Shown here in pieces: positions 6,608-19,218 of a stretch of DNA of 23,852 nucleotides. The position numbers and the translations under genes were made by a program. Origin of the DNA: a virus. The notes beneath the pieces were generated by a model, which was not told the DNA's origin, did not search any database, and worked only from the letters and a program-made list of their open reading frames with translations. The stretch spans positions 1-23,852 of IMG/VR virus record IMGVR_UViG_3300042907_000292; one strand, given 5' to 3'. Position 1 is the stretch's first letter; each line of letters begins with the position of its first letter.

Positions 6608-7150
6608 TTAGATAAAATCAGTGGTTTCTATATGCTGCCACCAGTTCATCGCAAAAGTAACAGAAAATTCTGCAATTCTGTCATTATCGCCCCAATCTAC
6701 TGGAATAGCACCGATATCAACCGGAAAACACTTAATCATTTGATATTGTGCTTTGATAGAACCGTCTTTTCCATATTGAATAACTTTTCCATCCATTTGA
6801 TAAACGGCTGGAGAAACATATGTAACACTTCTTACGTTTTGTACGTGTCTATTCAATTGATCAGACCATCTTTCTAAAAAAGCTCTTGGACCATCAAAAG
6901 TTAGATCATCTTCGTCTAATAGAACACTAATAGTCCAATCTCCAAAAACTCTATTACCGGCGAATTTGGCTTGACGACCAAAATAAAATGCTGGAGCAAC
7001 CCCGATGCTAGAAGCAGGAATTGCAGAAGCCTTTGCTCTAATAGGCATTTTTAGACCAGTTCCAACTTGGTCAAAGAATATTTCAAAAAGATTTGGTCTT
7101 AGACCATCTCTTTGCATTTCTGAAATGAAATTATTAATATTAAACGCCAT
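6608..7150 (-). CDS. 19: Tail tube protein gp19
   Basis: The inner tube subunit of the contractile tail stacks as hexameric rings around the tape measure and lets DNA pass. At 180 residues it is slightly longer than T4 gp19 (163). It shows the family's succession: RPNLFEIFF near residue 18, 'KASAIPASSIG' near 40, 'FAGNRVFGDWTISVLLDED' near 63-81, and the closing 'FPVDIGAIPVDWGDNDRIAEFSVTFAMNWW'. Its own late promoter lies 40 bases upstream and a terminator separates it from gp18, so it can be made in amounts different from sheath. An AAAGGAG site precedes the ATG. Confidence 0.96.
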   Translation of the reverse strand: MAFNINNFISEMQRDGLRPNLFEIFFDQVGTGLKMPIRAKASAIPASSIGVAPAFYFGRQAKFAGNRVFGDWTISVLLDEDDLTFDGPRAFLERWSDQLNRHVQNVRSVTYVSPAVYQMDGKVIQYGKDGSIKAQYQMIKCFPVDIGAIPVDWGDNDRIAEFSVTFAMNWWQHIETTDFI

Positions 7151-7189
7151 TGTTCATCTCCTTTAAAGATAGGTATATTATTTATTTAG

Positions 7190-7197
7190 TATTTATA
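7190..7197 (-). promoter_or_regulatory. T4-type late promoter of gp19
   Basis: An exact TATAAATA on the minus strand ends 39 bases before the gp19 ATG and some 30 bases beyond the gp18 terminator. The pair terminator-then-promoter resets transcription between sheath and tube genes. Confidence 0.8.
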
Positions 7198-7223
7198 AAA
7201 AATGCAAATTCAAGTTTTTTATA

Positions 7224-7268: not shown

Positions 7269-9047
7269 TTAGAACTGTCCAATTACTGTGGAGAATTCTA
7301 CGCCACTTCTTACGGCTACAAAATTTAGCTGAATAAAGTTAATTGATCTTGCTGGTTTGATGTAGATATCACCAACAAAAGCATTTCTGTCAATTACATC
7401 TGGGGTATTATTTGTTTCATCACAAATAACTTTGAAGTCAATAATACCACGACGACCTTTAACAGTTCTTAGATATGGTTCAATCATAGCAACGAACTGT
7501 GCTCTGGTAAACGCATCATTGAATTCGAATAGGCTATATCTTGCAGATCTGGAGATAGCTTTTTCTAGAGTAATGAATAGTCTACGAACATTGATTCTAT
7601 CAAATGCTGAAGGCTTTGCTTGCATGGTCTTGTCACCTAGTAGAACAACACCTTCGCCCTTCATGAAGATAACAGGATTAACACCATTTTTGTATAGTGC
7701 ATCTCTTTCTGTCAGATTTGGCGACCAAGCTAATTTAACAACATTTTTAATCTTGCCACGATTGAAACCGCCTGGAGAGAACCAAGGATCGGCAACAGAG
7801 TCAGTATAAGCACACAGACCAGCAATGTCAGCATTCAAAGGAACCCAACGATAAACGTTGTTGTAACGATCATATTGATATTTCCAACCGGAGTCAGAAA
7901 CCATATATGAACTGGATCTTGATAGAGTGTTTAGGAAGCTGTCATTATCTGTTACGATTCTTTCGACTTCTTGATTCGGTTTATTCACAACATCCGAGAA
8001 TCTTGGAGAAACGAATAACATCAAATCCTTTCTACCAACAGTTGGAGATTCGGATTCTGGTCCTAGAACAATTTCATCTAGAACATGTTGAGCAACTCCG
8101 ACACTAGAAGAACCAACGAATGCAAGAGAAATTTCGTATCTATCCTTATCTTTGAATCTATCCCAGTTTAATTCTAATGCTCCGTCAGAAGGAGTAGAAC
8201 CATTAGCACCACCAGTTAAAGTAACAGTATAGTTTGATGGAGAGTAGAATCCAGATCCCATAGTAAGATCCGAAGACAATTTGCCCCATGTTGTAGAAGT
8301 ATTCGAAAAATCTACTGGGTCCATTGCATAGATATACTGAGAATTTTGTTTTAGATATTCTTTGTAATAAGAACTTCTACCATTAATATCAACAGCATCA
8401 AATGATTTTGATAGAAATGCAAACTTCTCAATAATTGTATTTGCTTTTCCGGTAAATCCACCAGCAGAGTCGATAACAACAATATGTAATTCGTCATTGG
8501 CAACGTAGTTACCAGTCTTTTCAATGATATATTGAGAAGTTCCTGGAGCATTGTCGAAATAACGGGAATAATTCCAATCTGTAAAATCGGAATTTTTTGC
8601 ACAAATGGAAACTGTTAAAGAATTTCCTAGTGTTCCTGGATATCTAGCAGCAAATGGACCAAAAGAATTTGTATTATTAGCGTAGAAGTACGTAGATTCG
8701 AATGTATCTTGGTTTTTGCATAGCAAAGTTCTGCTAACATTTGCAGTAGCATTGTTTGCGGTATTTGCGTCAACAGTTCTTACTACATACAATGCGTTGG
8801 TATAAGATAAGAAGTTCGCGCAAGAAAAGAAAGAAACAGCAGAAAAAGAATTTTCTATTGTTGATACTGGTTTTCCAAAAACTTCTATTAATTGATTTTC
8901 GTCAGAAATCAATGAAGGATCGTCACATGGACCCCAGTTGAATTGTCCTACATAAGCTCCAACGGAGGTTGCTACACTAGGTACGATAGTGGTTAAGTCA
9001 ATTTCGTTGACAGCAATTCCAGGGCTTAGTTGATTAATTATGCTCAT
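7269..9047 (-). CDS. 18: Contractile tail sheath protein gp18
   Basis: Sheath subunits form the helical outer layer that contracts to push the tube through the cell envelope. At 592 residues it is somewhat shorter than T4 gp18 (659), the variable outer domains accounting for such differences in the family. The N-terminus has the conserved 'INQLSPGIAVNEIDLTTIVPSVATSVGAYVGQFNWGP'. The C-terminal third has the conserved sheath core: 'WSPNLTERDALYKNGVNPVIFMKGEGVVLLGDKTMQ', 'FDRINVRRLFITLEKAI', 'FEFNDAFTRAQFVAMIEPYLRTVKGRRGI', and a final beta strand that hooks neighbouring subunits. A strong AAAGGAG precedes the ATG. It is followed by the UUCG terminator. Confidence 0.97.
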   Translation of the reverse strand: MSIINQLSPGIAVNEIDLTTIVPSVATSVGAYVGQFNWGPCDDPSLISDENQLIEVFGKPVSTIENSFSAVSFFSCANFLSYTNALYVVRTVDANTANNATANVSRTLLCKNQDTFESTYFYANNTNSFGPFAARYPGTLGNSLTVSICAKNSDFTDWNYSRYFDNAPGTSQYIIEKTGNYVANDELHIVVIDSAGGFTGKANTIIEKFAFLSKSFDAVDINGRSSYYKEYLKQNSQYIYAMDPVDFSNTSTTWGKLSSDLTMGSGFYSPSNYTVTLTGGANGSTPSDGALELNWDRFKDKDRYEISLAFVGSSSVGVAQHVLDEIVLGPESESPTVGRKDLMLFVSPRFSDVVNKPNQEVERIVTDNDSFLNTLSRSSSYMVSDSGWKYQYDRYNNVYRWVPLNADIAGLCAYTDSVADPWFSPGGFNRGKIKNVVKLAWSPNLTERDALYKNGVNPVIFMKGEGVVLLGDKTMQAKPSAFDRINVRRLFITLEKAISRSARYSLFEFNDAFTRAQFVAMIEPYLRTVKGRRGIIDFKVICDETNNTPDVIDRNAFVGDIYIKPARSINFIQLNFVAVRSGVEFSTVIGQF

Positions 9048-9076
9048 ATATAATCTCCTTTAATAAAAAATATGTT

Positions 9077-9084
9077 TTATTATA
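9077..9084 (-). promoter_or_regulatory. Possible late-type promoter of gp18 (degenerate)
   Basis: TATAATAA on the minus strand ends 29 bases before the gp18 ATG, within an AT-rich leader. It differs from the late consensus TATAAATA and could equally be read as a -10 element. gp18 needs strong late expression and its gene is separated from gp17 by 440 bases, so a promoter here is expected; which bases form it is uncertain. Confidence 0.35.
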
Positions 9085-9138
9085 AATTATTTAGTAAATC
9101 ACACTTTTTCACCAAAGATTAGTTGGAATTTTAAGACG

Positions 9139-9146
9139 TATAAATA
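9139..9146 (+). promoter_or_regulatory. T4-type late promoter on the plus strand, facing away from gp18
   Basis: An exact TATAAATA lies in noncoding DNA on the strand opposite to all protein genes. Transcription from it would begin near 9152, exactly where the run of base-paired segments begins. The same box is used on the minus strand before gp22, gp19 and a fibre-region gene, so this phage evidently uses this consensus. There is no plus-strand reading frame of note downstream. Confidence 0.6.
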
Positions 9147-9151
9147 AACAC

Positions 9152-9452
9152 AGACAATTGCTATAGATAGCACATCATCAAGCAACATATAAAGTTGTTC
9201 TTGCGCTGATGGTCAACCCAATAGTTCAAAGCTCACGGCGGATAATGGCTCTATACGACGATAACCATTAAAGAATTGGATGTAGTTTCAAGTGCTACCA
9301 ATTTCTTACAGCTAGTTAAGACGAAGGTAAAAGGAGACAGCTAACCCCCCTTGTATACCTGTAATAAGGTTCTTCTACTTGAAATGCAAACCGAAATGGC
9401 TCCATACGATGACGTTTCAAAATTGCAACTTGCCCGTGTAGGGTAAGTTGCA
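9152..9452 (+). ncRNA. Candidate structured noncoding RNA between gp18 and gp17
   Basis: About 300 bases without a protein gene fold into successive helices on the plus strand. TGCTA/TAGCA with a TAGA loop (9159-9172). AGCAAC/GTTGTT inside CATCA/TGATG (9173-9211). TAATGG/CCATTA (9243-9270). AATTG..GTAG/CTAC..CAATT (9274-9303). TTGAAA/TTTCAA (9379-9420). A final 12-pair hairpin TGCAACTTGCCC/GGGTAAGTTGCA with loop GTGTA (9424-9452). The helix at 9181-9199 and the last hairpin each hold a G-U pair (9182-9198, 9432-9444) that exists only in plus-strand RNA; the minus strand would have mismatches. The loop at 9286-9293 is fully complementary to 9377-9384, a possible pseudoknot. A plus-strand late promoter precedes it. 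No T-run follows the last hairpin, so the 3' end is unclear. I match it to no known RNA family. Confidence 0.55.
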
Positions 9453-9489
9453 CCCAAAATTCACCCTCGATGACTAAAGTTAGATTAAA

Positions 9490-11196
9490 TTAACCTCTAA
9501 AGAAATTATCAAAAAGTTCTTTATAGATATCATCATTTTTAGTACCCAGATTAGCATTAACCCACAAAGTGCCATCTTCCTGATAGAAATCTAATTGCAT
9601 TCCATTTGTTGGACCAATTACAGGTAACATTTCATCGTCATCAAATTCTTCAAAATGTTCTATTTGTAATTGTCTTTTAATATCATGTGATACAATTTCT
9701 TTAAATAATTTTTGTGAAGCTAACCAAGCAAATATTACTAAAGTCATTGCTATGTCATCATTACAACCTTCTTCTGCTCTGTATGTTGGACCATCTACTA
9801 CAAATGTAGTTAGTTCAGAAATAGTTTCAAAATCATTAATGATTAGTTTATCATTTTCTATTAATGTTTTTAATGATGAACATCCTACTCTTTTAACCAA
9901 AGGACTCATCTTCAATCCAGAGAATGTTTTACCGGATCTTAATGAAATTGTTTGAGCTTTTTTATTCCCCGACGATACCCTAAAAACATTTTCATATCCC
10001 AAATCTTCTTGTAATATGTCTGCTACTTGTGGATTATTATTGATTTCCACCAAAACGTGTGCAGTGTTGTAATAATCCGCACATGCTTTGACAATAGCTG
10101 GTAATACCATAGGAGAAATATTATTGTTTCTATATACTGCTACTTGTTTATATGGAATTGCTGAAATATCAAACACAGAAAATGCAGAATAGTCTAAATT
10201 CTTTCCTTCCGAGACATCTACAGTAATTGCATATAAATGATCTCCAGATATGGGTTTTCCTGTATAATCATCAATTGTTTCTTTTACAGGTTGCTCGTAT
10301 ATTGTCATATTGGAATATTCGCCAATAGGTTCTTTGTACGGAAGACAAGCTAATTTTTCTCCAGAGATTAATGTATTGGTTGAACCGAGGAACGAACATT
10401 CAATTTCTTGTGCGAATTGTCTTTCTGAAGTATTTCTTATAAATTCTTCTTTCCACTTCTCATCTCTTCCCGGAACTTGAGTCCAGTGAACGTCGATACA
10501 TGAATAATCATTTTTTCCAGATTTTGCATCGGTAAAGATTTTATAGAATAGATTCATACCATTAGGAGTACTAATGATAGTGATCTTTGTTTTTTCGCCG
10601 GAAGAAATAACTGGATATACCGATGTAAAGAATTCTTCGGCTAGATTATTATGAACGTGGGCGAATTCGTCAAGTATGACATGGGTATAACTTCCGCCTC
10701 GCACTGCTGATGAAGATGTTGCGGCGGCGGTTACTTTCGATCCGTTTTCTAATTCAATATTACCTTTATTCCACACTACTACCCCTTGTTGCAAGAACAT
10801 GGGCAGATTTTCGTATGATCTTTGATACCTATCAAGAAGATCCCTAGCCAATGACCCTTTATTAGCAAGGATAACAATATTTTGTGTATCTTTAAATAGA
10901 GATGACCATAAAACATAACCTATAGTAGTTTGACTTTTACCAGATTGGCGACCAATTCTGCCTACAACGCGACGATTATCGTAAATAGTCTTGATCATCT
11001 CTCTTTGGAAATCATATAACTTGAAAGGGATCACACCCCTATCAACGTGAATGATTTTCATGTAATTTTCTATAAAATATATCGGATCTTGGGAACATTT
11101 TAAATATTCCTCTAGTTGCTCCTGAGTATATTCTAATTGAACATTACATCTTTTTAAGAGTGGATTCGCTCGGTAGCTATCACTCAAATCCGTCAT
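9490..11196 (-). CDS. 17: Terminase large subunit gp17 (packaging ATPase and nuclease)
   Basis: This motor docks on the portal, pumps DNA with its ATPase and cuts concatemers with its nuclease. The 568 residues fit T4 gp17 (610). ATPase domain: Walker A GRQSGKS at 82-88, Walker B THVILDEFAH with D176 and catalytic E177, and the coupling motif IISTPNG at 208-213. Nuclease domain (RNase H-like fold): D327 in TVDVSEG, E384 in LVEIN, and D480/D481 in CNDDIAMTL correspond to the three metal-binding acids of T4 (D401, E458, D542). Its ATG is one base after the gp16 stop, so the two are coupled. Downstream lies the 440-base noncoding region rather than gp18 directly. Confidence 0.98.
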   Translation of the reverse strand: MTDLSDSYRANPLLKRCNVQLEYTQEQLEEYLKCSQDPIYFIENYMKIIHVDRGVIPFKLYDFQREMIKTIYDNRRVVGRIGRQSGKSQTTIGYVLWSSLFKDTQNIVILANKGSLARDLLDRYQRSYENLPMFLQQGVVVWNKGNIELENGSKVTAAATSSSAVRGGSYTHVILDEFAHVHNNLAEEFFTSVYPVISSGEKTKITIISTPNGMNLFYKIFTDAKSGKNDYSCIDVHWTQVPGRDEKWKEEFIRNTSERQFAQEIECSFLGSTNTLISGEKLACLPYKEPIGEYSNMTIYEQPVKETIDDYTGKPISGDHLYAITVDVSEGKNLDYSAFSVFDISAIPYKQVAVYRNNNISPMVLPAIVKACADYYNTAHVLVEINNNPQVADILQEDLGYENVFRVSSGNKKAQTISLRSGKTFSGLKMSPLVKRVGCSSLKTLIENDKLIINDFETISELTTFVVDGPTYRAEEGCNDDIAMTLVIFAWLASQKLFKEIVSHDIKRQLQIEHFEEFDDDEMLPVIGPTNGMQLDFYQEDGTLWVNANLGTKNDDIYKELFDNFFRG

Positions 11197-11197
11197 A

Positions 11198-11644
11198 TTA
11201 ATTTATCTCTTTAATATTATCTTCGTTCATTTGTTTTACTAGTTTCGATAGCTCCGAAGTAGAACCGACAAATAGTGCATTCTTGATTGTTGTTTGACCA
11301 TCAGAAGAACCTTTTTGTTTGTAGTTTGATATTTCTCTCACTTTTTTGTGGAGATCAATCATTCTTTCGTTTGCTTCGATGGTATTTTTTAATAGCCCAG
11401 CAGCAACTTCAAAATCTCGTCCTTTTTCCGATTCTCTTGCTATAGCTAGAATATCATCAATTGCATCTTTACTTTTTTCTATCAATTCATGCATATTTTC
11501 TCTAGCAATTTCATAATCTTTTTTCAGATCTAATTCTAGAGTTTCGTGCGGAATTGAATCGTATGTTTTTTTGGGAAGATTAGACGGTTCTACAGGAGTT
11601 ACATCGAAGAACTCTTCCATATTTTTTTCAAATTTACTTGTCAT
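11198..11644 (-). CDS. 16: Terminase small subunit gp16
   Basis: The small terminase subunit forms rings that stimulate the gp17 ATPase and regulate its nuclease at packaging initiation. The 148 residues are close to T4 gp16 (164). Its middle (about 40-110) is a run of long charged helices, with KDYEIARENMHELIEKSKDA and 'FEVAAGLLKNTIEANERMIDLHKKVREI', the oligomerising coiled-coil core typical of T4-type small terminases. The C-terminal part is more variable. Position between gp15 and gp17, with one-to-four-base junctions, supports the call. Confidence 0.92.
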   Translation of the reverse strand: MTSKFEKNMEEFFDVTPVEPSNLPKKTYDSIPHETLELDLKKDYEIARENMHELIEKSKDAIDDILAIARESEKGRDFEVAAGLLKNTIEANERMIDLHKKVREISNYKQKGSSDGQTTIKNALFVGSTSELSKLVKQMNEDNIKEIN

Positions 11645-13568: not shown

Positions 13569-14357
13569 TTATATGTCCGATATTAATTTATATCCTTCCG
13601 GCTCTGTTCCCGGAAAACAATATTTAAATTTGTTTAATTCAATATTTATGTATTTTTTTCTTCCTATTTTGGATTCGGAAACTTTTTTTCGATTTTCTGG
13701 ATCGGCCATAGAATTTCTTTCTCCCATTCCTTTCCCTGTTCTGGATTGTTTTTGTTTTTCCACAGTTTCTTTTGAAGGTTTTTTCCCTAATCTACTTTTT
13801 GAGATTTTTTCTTTTGCTTCTTCTGTGTGCGAATAAGTCATTCCTAAAGCATATTGGTTTCCTATTAATGATTCGGAAATTTTTTTGGAAGTTTCTTCTT
13901 TCTGTTCTTCGGTTAGGTTTTCGTACCATTGTTTCATTATTTCGGAATGTTTGGATTTAAATTTTTCATCTTTAAATCTTTCGAGAGCTTTTTTTCTTAT
14001 TTTATTTTTGGTCGAGCGCCCACATTTTCTTCCATGTGATCCTTCACCGCCCAGAGTTAAATTGTAACCCTTGCAATCTATAAACCCACAATATGATTTA
14101 TATTCGAGGATGAAATAATTTTCCATTACATTTTTTGTATGTTCTCTATATTTAGATTGATATAGAACTTCCCACGAAAAATTATTAATTCCATATTTTC
14201 TAATTGCTTCATAAAATGCAGAAAAATGTTTATTATTTAGTTTTTCTGTGACATTTTTTATATGGTCTTTTTTCCTTTTATCAAAGTTTTGGGTAAAACC
14301 AATGTAGACTTTTCCGTTAATTACATTTTTTGCTTTATATATGGTATAAATATTCAT
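13569..14357 (-). CDS. Free-standing GIY-YIG homing endonuclease
   Basis: This 262-residue nuclease is of the T4 Seg / I-TevI kind. The N-terminal catalytic domain has TIY at 5-7 and YIG at 18-20 (the two halves of the GIY-YIG motif), Arg at 28, and the metal-binding Glu at 79. GYNLTLGGEG at 97-106 marks the end of the domain. Downstream are NUMOD3-like DNA-binding repeats: GRSTKNKIRKKALERF, 'YSHTEEAKEKISKSRLGKKPS' and NRKKVSESKIGRKK. The gene lies between intact gp13 and gp14, so it is intergenic and not inside an intron. Such genes cut the matching locus of phages that lack them and spread by repair. It follows a hairpin-containing gap (14358-14440) and has a good GGAG. Its stop is four bases from gp14, so the insertion is very compact. 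Confidence 0.93.
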   Translation of the reverse strand: MNIYTIYKAKNVINGKVYIGFTQNFDKRKKDHIKNVTEKLNNKHFSAFYEAIRKYGINNFSWEVLYQSKYREHTKNVMENYFILEYKSYCGFIDCKGYNLTLGGEGSHGRKCGRSTKNKIRKKALERFKDEKFKSKHSEIMKQWYENLTEEQKEETSKKISESLIGNQYALGMTYSHTEEAKEKISKSRLGKKPSKETVEKQKQSRTGKGMGERNSMADPENRKKVSESKIGRKKYINIELNKFKYCFPGTEPEGYKLISDI

Positions 14358-18240: not shown

Positions 18241-19218
18241 TCACCAAGTAATAGTTCCAGATCCAGTAAAAGTATATATTTTATATCCCCCAGAATTTAA
18301 ATATGTAGGAGATCCTGTTGTAGATACAGCATCTTTAAGTGTATTAGAGTATCTTATGCCAACTATTCCAGAACCACCCGTTCCACTATTAAGAGATGAT
18401 CCTGCTGCAGTAGCACCGCCGCCTCCTCCAGTATTTACTGTCCCTGCTGTTGCTGATTGTGGAGAAGTTCCGTTTGTCCCCACTCCCCCGGCACCGCCGC
18501 CGCCAGATCCACCGGCTCCTATGTCAATAGTTGAACAACCGCCGCCGCCGCCACCAAAGGTTCCACCAAAAGTAGATTTTCCGGCACCCCCATTTCCAAC
18601 TGGATTTCTGGTAGTAGAATTTCCTCCGGCAGCACCTGCTCCTCCTCCTCCTCCTCCGGCTCCTACCAACGCACCCCCAAGTAAACCATTCCCACCAGCG
18701 AATCCTTGTCCAGAAGTTCCTGCTGCACCAGCGGTATAACTGGTTGTTGATCCACCAGCACCTCCGGAACCTCCTGTTGAAGCGGTAGCGGAATTTCTCG
18801 CGCCTTTTCCTCCTCCAGTAGCAGTTATCGAAGAAAAAACAGAACTAGATCCAGCGGCATCCACGCTTGCTCCACCAGCGCCTACTGTTACTGTATACGC
18901 TACTCCAGTAGAAACTGCTACAGAACCTGTCAAAACACCTCCCCCACCACCAGCGCCAGGATGTCCTTGGGAAGTTGTTCCCCCAGAAGAACCACCACCA
19001 GCAACAACGTAATACTCTACGGAAGAAGGGGGGAGGATATACGATTTTCCATAAAAATTACTTAGAGAAATTGCTCCAGACGCAACACCAGCAAGAGTTC
19101 TAACGACAGTTTCATTTAAATTCGTCGTTGCTCCTGCTGCTCTTGTTATTTCTAAATTGATGGATCTATTAGCCGTAGATCCGCCAATTGACATTTCTCC
19201 AGATGCCGCTAGTGTCAT
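18241..19218 (-). CDS. Gly-rich tail adhesin with shared 'NFYGK' attachment domain
   Basis: Residues 1-58, ending LAGVASGAISLSNFYGK, form the same attachment domain as in the kelch-like protein. The next 230 or so residues are dominated by Gly/Ala/Ser/Thr with runs such as GAGGGGGV, GGGGGGAGAAGG and GGGGGGCST. This is like the poly-Gly sandwich of distal adhesins of T-even phages (gp38) and other glycine-rich virion domains. A beta-rich end (YLNSGGYKIYTFTGSGTITW) follows. In gp38 the Gly-rich part holds hypervariable host-range loops; the same use here is inference. The high GC of this stretch follows from the Gly codons. It forms a cassette with the 117-aa protein upstream, three bases away. 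Confidence 0.78.
   Translation of the reverse strand: MTLAASGEMSIGGSTANRSINLEITRAAGATTNLNETVVRTLAGVASGAISLSNFYGKSYILPPSSVEYYVVAGGGSSGGTTSQGHPGAGGGGGVLTGSVAVSTGVAYTVTVGAGGASVDAAGSSSVFSSITATGGGKGARNSATASTGGSGGAGGSTTSYTAGAAGTSGQGFAGGNGLLGGALVGAGGGGGGAGAAGGNSTTRNPVGNGGAGKSTFGGTFGGGGGGCSTIDIGAGGSGGGGAGGVGTNGTSPQSATAGTVNTGGGGGATAAGSSLNSGTGGSGIVGIRYSNTLKDAVSTTGSPTYLNSGGYKIYTFTGSGTITW

Follow-up and report, generated by a model that had tools for sequence, protein, structure and literature searches.

A candidate late structured RNA gene, oriented against the genes, at the terminase-tail sheath junction of a T4-like phage lineage

Structured and antisense RNAs have been described in several T4-like phages. 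CfrI of cyanophage S-PM2 is an RNA of ∼225 bases that runs against the genes of this T4-like phage and lies beside a homing endonuclease gene (PMC2984593, PMC12197685; the latter also reviews phage small RNAs). In T4-like cyanophages, manA and wcaG are potential 5' UTR elements of metabolic genes and are located on the gene's strand (PMC2864571), and Rfam RNAs of cyanophage S-CREM1 are covered in PMC9964418. T4 itself has two small RNAs of unknown role, RNAC and RNAD, and, according to PMC3014915, no T4 riboswitch or trans-acting small RNA had been functionally characterised by 2010; the reference list of that paper includes a 1987 study of how T4 gene 32 is transcribed in the sense and antisense directions. 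GOLLD and ROOL are large ornate RNAs, also of unknown role (PMC12286853). In the literature covered here, which includes few subscription journals and was partly available, we found neither a described equivalent of the element reported below nor an RNA between gp17 (terminase) and gp18 (tail sheath).

The element is located in the window, that is, the whole stretch of 23,852 nucleotides analysed here (IMG/VR record IMGVR_UViG_3300042907_000292), which comes from a T4-like phage and carries the neighbouring genes on the minus strand in T4 order (Table 1). A sister record (G001, IMGVR_UViG_3300042882_000327; 89,959 bases, hereafter the 90 kb sister record) is identical in sequence to the window over the common stretch, and all 105 of its ORFs of at least 60 aa, as called by a greedy longest-ORF procedure, are on one strand. 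The best-ranked cultured gp18 relatives are phages of Stenotrophomonas, Sinorhizobium, Ochrobactrum and Pelagibacter (45-49% identity). Relatives for comparison were collected from IMG/VR with gp18 as the query, which confirmed 265 of them (best 80 retained), and from a gp17 search (best 80 of at least 599). Four more contigs of the same phage (L001, L002, L003 and L005) are identical to the window where they overlap and all carry the element, and a second phage, L004 (IMGVR_UViG_3300044655_001033), which has 83% identity to the window over 9 kb, carries it at the same gp17-gp18 junction. Thus, the element could not be an assembly accident of a single contig. It was not found in L212, a contig of the same phage from the best 80 of at least 599 gp17 matches, in which the terminase match is cut at residue 485.

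Several other features were observed in these records. Between gp14 and the next gene of the window, a 262-aa ORF (13569-14357) has a weak GIY-YIG match (PF01541, E 8e-4, under the curated cut-off) and is a possible homing endonuclease. Matches to phrog_45, the gp19 tail tube family, were obtained for two genes (L102:15299-15868 and window 6608-7150; E 1.1e-26 and 2.1e-38, respectively), which suggests that this phage has one more gene of the tail tube type. A glycine-rich protein of 325 aa (window 18241-19218; PF21722, E 1.5e-16) is encoded at a GC content of 52-57%, against ∼33% around it. The uvsX gene of the 90 kb sister record (L101:15027-16744, minus strand) is apparently interrupted by an intein that is encoded in two ORFs: the N-part closes a 306-aa ORF and the C-part opens a 201-aa ORF (PF14890, E 1.1e-4 and 4.9e-4, both under the curated cut-off), with the UvsX C-terminal domain (PF21134, E 8.8e-22) after the C-part. 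The intein may be naturally split, or it may have decayed; two of the record's other long gaps flank this region. Finally, gp17 of the relative L071 (519-3030) falls into two matching parts ∼930 bases apart, with an intron, an intein or an inserted gene as possible causes.

A sequence-only reading of the window had noted an exact TATAAATA on the plus strand, followed by a gene-free stretch with successive helices. The box was confirmed in the sequence, and the stretch, of ∼330 bases, contains the helices described; no ORF of at least 60 aa overlaps the gap between gp17 and gp18. We infer both ends of the RNA candidate from conservation between the window and L004 alone (Table 1). The 18-base internal repeat may be a repeated binding site, and the conserved stretch before gp18 is presumably the promoter region of that gene. 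Small peptides were also considered, as the repeat gives short frames that start with ATG; by eye, the second frame is altered and shortened in L004, and this candidate was rejected.

Table 1. Features of the element and its surroundings (window coordinates)
Feature	Coordinates	Strand	Evidence or remark
Gene order: gp14, gp15, gp16, gp17, gap, gp18, gp19, gp20	gp17 9490-11196; gap 9048-9489; gp18 7269-9047	-	T4 order
Conserved stretch before gp18	9074-9098	-	Window versus L004; without exact TATAAATA
TATAAATA, late promoter candidate of the RNA gene	9139-9146	+	Exact box; kept in L004
RNA candidate	9150-9473	+	Block conserved between window and L004; both ends putative
Hairpin 1 (5 pairs, UAGA loop)	9159-9172	+	Invariant in both sequences
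Hairpin 2 (13 pairs)	9173-9211	+	Three compensatory double substitutions
Compensatory pair, hairpin 2	9175/9209		U-A to A-U
Compensatory pair, hairpin 2	9184/9196		A-U to G-C
Compensatory pair, hairpin 2	9186/9194		C-G to U-A
Nearly invariant core	9226-9470	+	237/245 identical to L004
Hairpin 3 (6 pairs)	9243-9270	+	Invariant; local fold no better than shuffles
Internal repeat, copy 1 (18 bases)	9244-9261	+	16/18 alike with 9395-9412
Hairpin 4, loop contains 9286-9293	9271-9307	+	Invariant; consensus z -2.1 plus, -0.5 minus
Possible partner of the hairpin 4 loop (9286-9293) in an 8-pair pseudoknot	9377-9384	+	Exact complement, invariant
Internal repeat, copy 2	9395-9412	+	One base different in L004
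Possible closing helix, 9403-9409 with 9467-9472, enclosing the end hairpin	9403-9472	+	Consensus fold, pair count; invariant
12-pair end hairpin, 9424-9435 with 9441-9452	9424-9452	+	One G-U pair, plus only

The comparison with L004 revealed strong constraint on the element. At fourfold-degenerate sites, the two phages are identical at 93 of 180 positions in gp17, 124 of 221 in gp18, 93 of 161 in gp20, 33 of 62 in gp19 and 20 of 41 in gp16, that is, 49-58% in the five flanking genes. In the core, 237 of 245 bases are identical; no other 245-base window across the 9 kb in common is as conserved, and no identical run elsewhere in the alignment is as long as the one of 89 bases that the core contains. 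One 2-base and one 1-base indel lie inside the conserved part, which is therefore not one reading frame. On the gp18 side, 9099-9138 is mostly diverged apart from an island, ACTTTTTCAC, and TATAAATAAA is exactly kept; toward gp17 the conserved block stops at 9473, and the next 16 bases up to that gene are alike at 10 positions with a 3-base gap. The constraint is supported by this comparison, which, like that of covariation below, involves two distinct element sequences, those of the window and L004. A separate stretch of the window (7103-7204) was identical to L004 at 101 of 102 bases (runs of 69 and 32); it covers the gap between gp18 and gp19, including a minus-strand TATAAATA at 7190-7197, together with the beginning of gp19, and appears to be a tail tube gene leader that is unusually well conserved.

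Folding of the window's sequence by itself gave modest values. For 9150-9460, z was -1.4 on the plus strand (9 of 100 shuffles were as good) and -0.8 on the minus strand, and the middle (9226-9420) was no better than shuffles (z +0.8 on the plus strand). The region of the end hairpin (9418-9458) reached -5.6 and -3.3 on the plus and minus strands, respectively. For this hairpin, 12 pairs including G-U pairing valid only in plus-strand RNA had been claimed, and this holds, G9432-U9444 being its one such pair. The complementarity of the loop at 9286-9293 to 9377-9384 over eight bases, which had suggested a pseudoknot, is also present in the sequence; an 8-mer complementary to this loop, which was picked after the fact, occurred in 1.2% of 20,000 trials in which the rest of the element was base-shuffled. 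In the consensus fold of both sequences, z was -4.05 on the plus strand and -1.19 on the minus strand (60 column shuffles for each strand, which preserve conservation classes and not dinucleotides). These values support a plus-strand preference. The folding signal was located in the 5' domain (-4.6 plus, -3.1 minus) and in the end hairpin (-6.7 plus, -4.0 minus), and the middle windows gave +0.1 to +0.7 on the plus strand, except for hairpin 4. An invariant core of this kind, which has no stable nested fold, would fit a pseudoknotted or protein-held RNA. Four further long gaps in the sister record (374, 285, 191 and 175 bases) showed no strong fold (z -1.7 to +1.3). It should be noted that the case for the element comes from the comparison with L004; most values of the window by itself are no more than chance.

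Hairpin 2 differs between the window and L004 by 10 substitutions, none of which breaks a pair: six form three compensatory pairs, and four affect the loop or a bulge. When 10 substitutions were placed at random, this was equalled in 7.5e-5 of 200,000 trials, and at least three double changes alone were reached in 0.16%; in a two-row control of compensatory pairs, the observed value was reached by 59 of 500 shuffles. Over the whole structure, three double changes were found, none of 65 pairs was broken and 62 pairs did not vary between the two sequences. When the pair partner was slid by 1-3 columns, 26-47% of the cells were still paired, against 100% in register, and none of the three double changes was left, a drop that is partly due to the structure having been drawn from the same two sequences. 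In these two distinct sequences, the changes in hairpin 2 appear to be helix-preserving, and no covariation was found inside the core. The strand argument from G-U pairs that had been made for the helix at 9181-9199 is weak, because the register fitting both phages (CAUCA/UGAUG, CAAG/CUUG and CAAC/GUUG) has no G-U pair; the hairpin itself (hairpin 2) exists.

To place the element in a wider context, the gp17-gp18 gap was measured in 159 of 286 loci, loci in which either gene end could not be placed being dropped. These comprised 15 copies of the window's phage, four of L004 and 140 others, and the element was not found in any of the 140 other loci, either by gap measurement or by nhmmer on the loci. 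The 140 gaps (84 distinct sequences) have a median of 71 bases; 136 are shorter than 100 bases, two measure 107 and 154 (138 of 140 below 200) and two, those of L252 and L207, measure 697 and 767. In four of the six cultured relatives, gp17 immediately precedes gp18, with 62-80 bases separating the two genes. Of these six, Rhizobium phage RHph_I1_18 (L207) has a gap that holds two ORFs, both annotated on the opposite strand, and Ochrobactrum phage OC has the small terminase gene before the sheath gene. The gap of L252 contains a 210-aa ORF between gp17 and gp18 (L252:4703-5335), which by eye had been read as a GIY-YIG endonuclease; no Pfam match at E 0.001 was obtained and this assignment was dropped. 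As nearly all other gaps are short, the element is supported as an insertion, most simply one that occurred in one lineage at a junction that now and then takes inserts.

We also analysed the occurrence of the promoter box. PMC2984593 describes NATAAATA in cyanophage S-PM2; in T4 and KVP40 it describes TATAAATA. The window contains five copies of TATAAATA (4.3 expected). There are 17 copies in the 90 kb sister record, eight of them intergenic, with ∼4% of the record being intergenic; seven of the eight are on the gene strand, 32-120 bases ahead of called genes (1.3 expected; none of 500 shuffles reached seven), and the sole one on the opposite strand is that of the element. This enrichment on the gene strand supports TATAAATA as a late promoter motif of this phage, and a homologue of the gp55-type late sigma factor is encoded in the sister record (L102:12295-12831, phrog_234, E 1.1e-59). 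For the opposite strand, 1.1 intergenic copies are expected in the 90 kb record and at least one occurred in 67% of shuffles; a plus-strand copy in this gap alone appeared in 5% of 2000 shuffles. The element's own copy is supported by its conservation and by its location ahead of the structured part. Opposite-strand copies were also present in eight of the 140 other gaps, which are short and do not carry the element, and all of them overlap a box on the gene strand (TATTTATAAATA-like or adjacent). The plus strand showed no terminator-like site in 8900-9700, so either the transcript would be trimmed back as far as the end hairpin to give the 3' end, or transcription would continue into gp17.

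No known RNA family could be assigned to the element. Rfam 15 (4227 models) gave no match at gathering score in the window or in six loci of sister records, and matches below it were at chance level (E 2.5-7.7); ARAGORN found no tRNA or tmRNA in the window and none in the 90 kb sister record, which also has no second copy of the element. Among 50,697 phage records no convincing match was obtained (short or AT-rich pieces, E at least 0.04), and 72,556 plasmid records had no match at E 1. Pattern scans of viral and genome contigs, which rely on exact seeds and are escaped by distant homologues that have no seed, found no third homologue, the carriers being L001, L002, L003, L005 and L004. The best five of the remaining seed hits were rejected, none of them extending into the element: that of L201 is in a frame open across all 1260 bases examined, those of L122 and L123 are within mechanical ORFs, and the matches of L287 and L288 are limited to 18-21 bases. 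A two-sequence profile gave no convincing nhmmer match in the other loci compared.

On balance, and with slightly better than even confidence, we regard the element as a lineage-specific gene of ∼320 bases for a late, trans-acting structured RNA. It would be a 'moron', inserted between gp17 and gp18 in two T4-like phages that are close relatives, and a gp55-type late sigma factor would start its transcription at TATAAATA, opposite to the gene direction. The RNA would fold into a 5' hairpin domain, the nearly invariant core, which may contain the pseudoknot, and a 3' domain whose 12-pair hairpin could protect or define the 3' end. It would act late and in trans through its shape and specific bases, probably by binding a phage or host protein, and not by antisense pairing. 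In RNAs that act by seed pairing, conservation usually lies mainly in the seed; per-base constraint such as that observed here speaks for specific contacts, with protein or in tertiary structure. The original proposal of a late structured RNA running against the genes is supported by the comparison with L004, and its transcription is what we infer. The element can now be stated as a candidate RNA with proposed borders, promoter and fold, which makes the question testable.

Other explanations were weighed against the same evidence. Since the element lies between two late genes, on a strand pair of which the minus strand is surely transcribed, it could act in cis on the late message of gp17 and gp18, for instance in processing or stability downstream of gp17 or as a long gp18 leader. 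The end hairpin does form on the minus strand, and the consensus energies of the two strands are nearly equal (-71.45 plus, -71.05 minus). However, the minus fold barely beats shuffles, in contrast to the plus fold, G9432-U9444 pairs on the plus strand only, the conserved TATAAATA points the opposite way and a separate conserved stretch is present between the element and gp18, and we consider a cis element unlikely. Alternatively, transcription from 9139 might continue into gp17 and lower its expression, the structure being a stabilising leader; an antisense leader acting on gp17 had also been proposed from the sequence. The orientation toward the 3' end of gp17 and the lack of a terminator-like plus-strand site in 8900-9700 make this possible, and CfrI is a precedent of antisense RNA in a T4-like cyanophage (PMC2984593), but an invariant core is not needed for antisense action, its base-by-base conservation is left unexplained and the 16 bases from the conserved block to gp17 align poorly; we think it decidedly improbable that the element is such a regulator. 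Pairing of 9158-9181 with 11437-11460, which would make the RNA antisense to gp16 (21 of 24 bases), was discarded, as the two stretches change in L004 and the match is lost.

The hairpins might also act as DNA, in a replication, recombination or packaging site or in a short mobile element. The element appears to be an insertion, L252 and L207 have other inserts at the same junction, and DNA hairpins would also yield compensatory changes. We nevertheless strongly doubt this explanation, as the consensus fold with RNA energies favours one strand, the promoter box is kept at the head and no second copy exists in the 90 kb record. We give the least credence of all to a functionless core, in which recent recombination between the two phages could mimic constraint. 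T4-like phages do recombine, the conserved patch is fairly sharp-edged (8 differences in 245 bases) and only two distinct sequences are available; on the other hand, the changes in adjoining hairpin 2 all keep the helix or are in the loop or bulge, and TATAAATAAA is kept amid largely diverged surroundings. A packaging-associated RNA had also been suggested; the basis for this is position, and the element was not found in the 140 other gp17-gp18 loci. No specific support was obtained for either packaging or antisense roles of the element.

If real, the element is an RNA gene inserted backwards in the late structural operon of a T4-like phage. We tentatively suggest, as a possibility well short of even, a new class of phage RNA, that is, a late opposite-strand RNA whose core is an RNA machine carried as a moron in the structural operon; such a machine might be a scaffold of a ribonucleoprotein, a decoy that engages a host protein of defence or RNA processing, or a new ribozyme. 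GOLLD and ROOL are associated with phages and are longer than the element, and their models are presumably present in the Rfam library searched; the element differs from them in having no Rfam match. The phi29 packaging RNA (pRNA) belongs to phi29-type motors and none is known for T4-type motors; the packaging idea, with the element adjoining a terminase gene, invites the comparison, and the element differs in having no Rfam match and in not being found in 140 other terminase-sheath loci. RNAC and RNAD, which are encoded in the T4 tRNA region, are set apart from the element by their location. With manA, wcaG and PhotoRC-II the element shares that they are structured RNAs of T4-like phages (PMC2864571), whereas, in contrast to manA and wcaG as described there, it has no downstream gene on its strand and no Rfam match. 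CfrI is antisense to psbA and an endonuclease gene, whereas the element lies in a gene-free gap and its conserved block ends before gp17; what the two have in common is that both are oriented against the genes of a T4-like phage.
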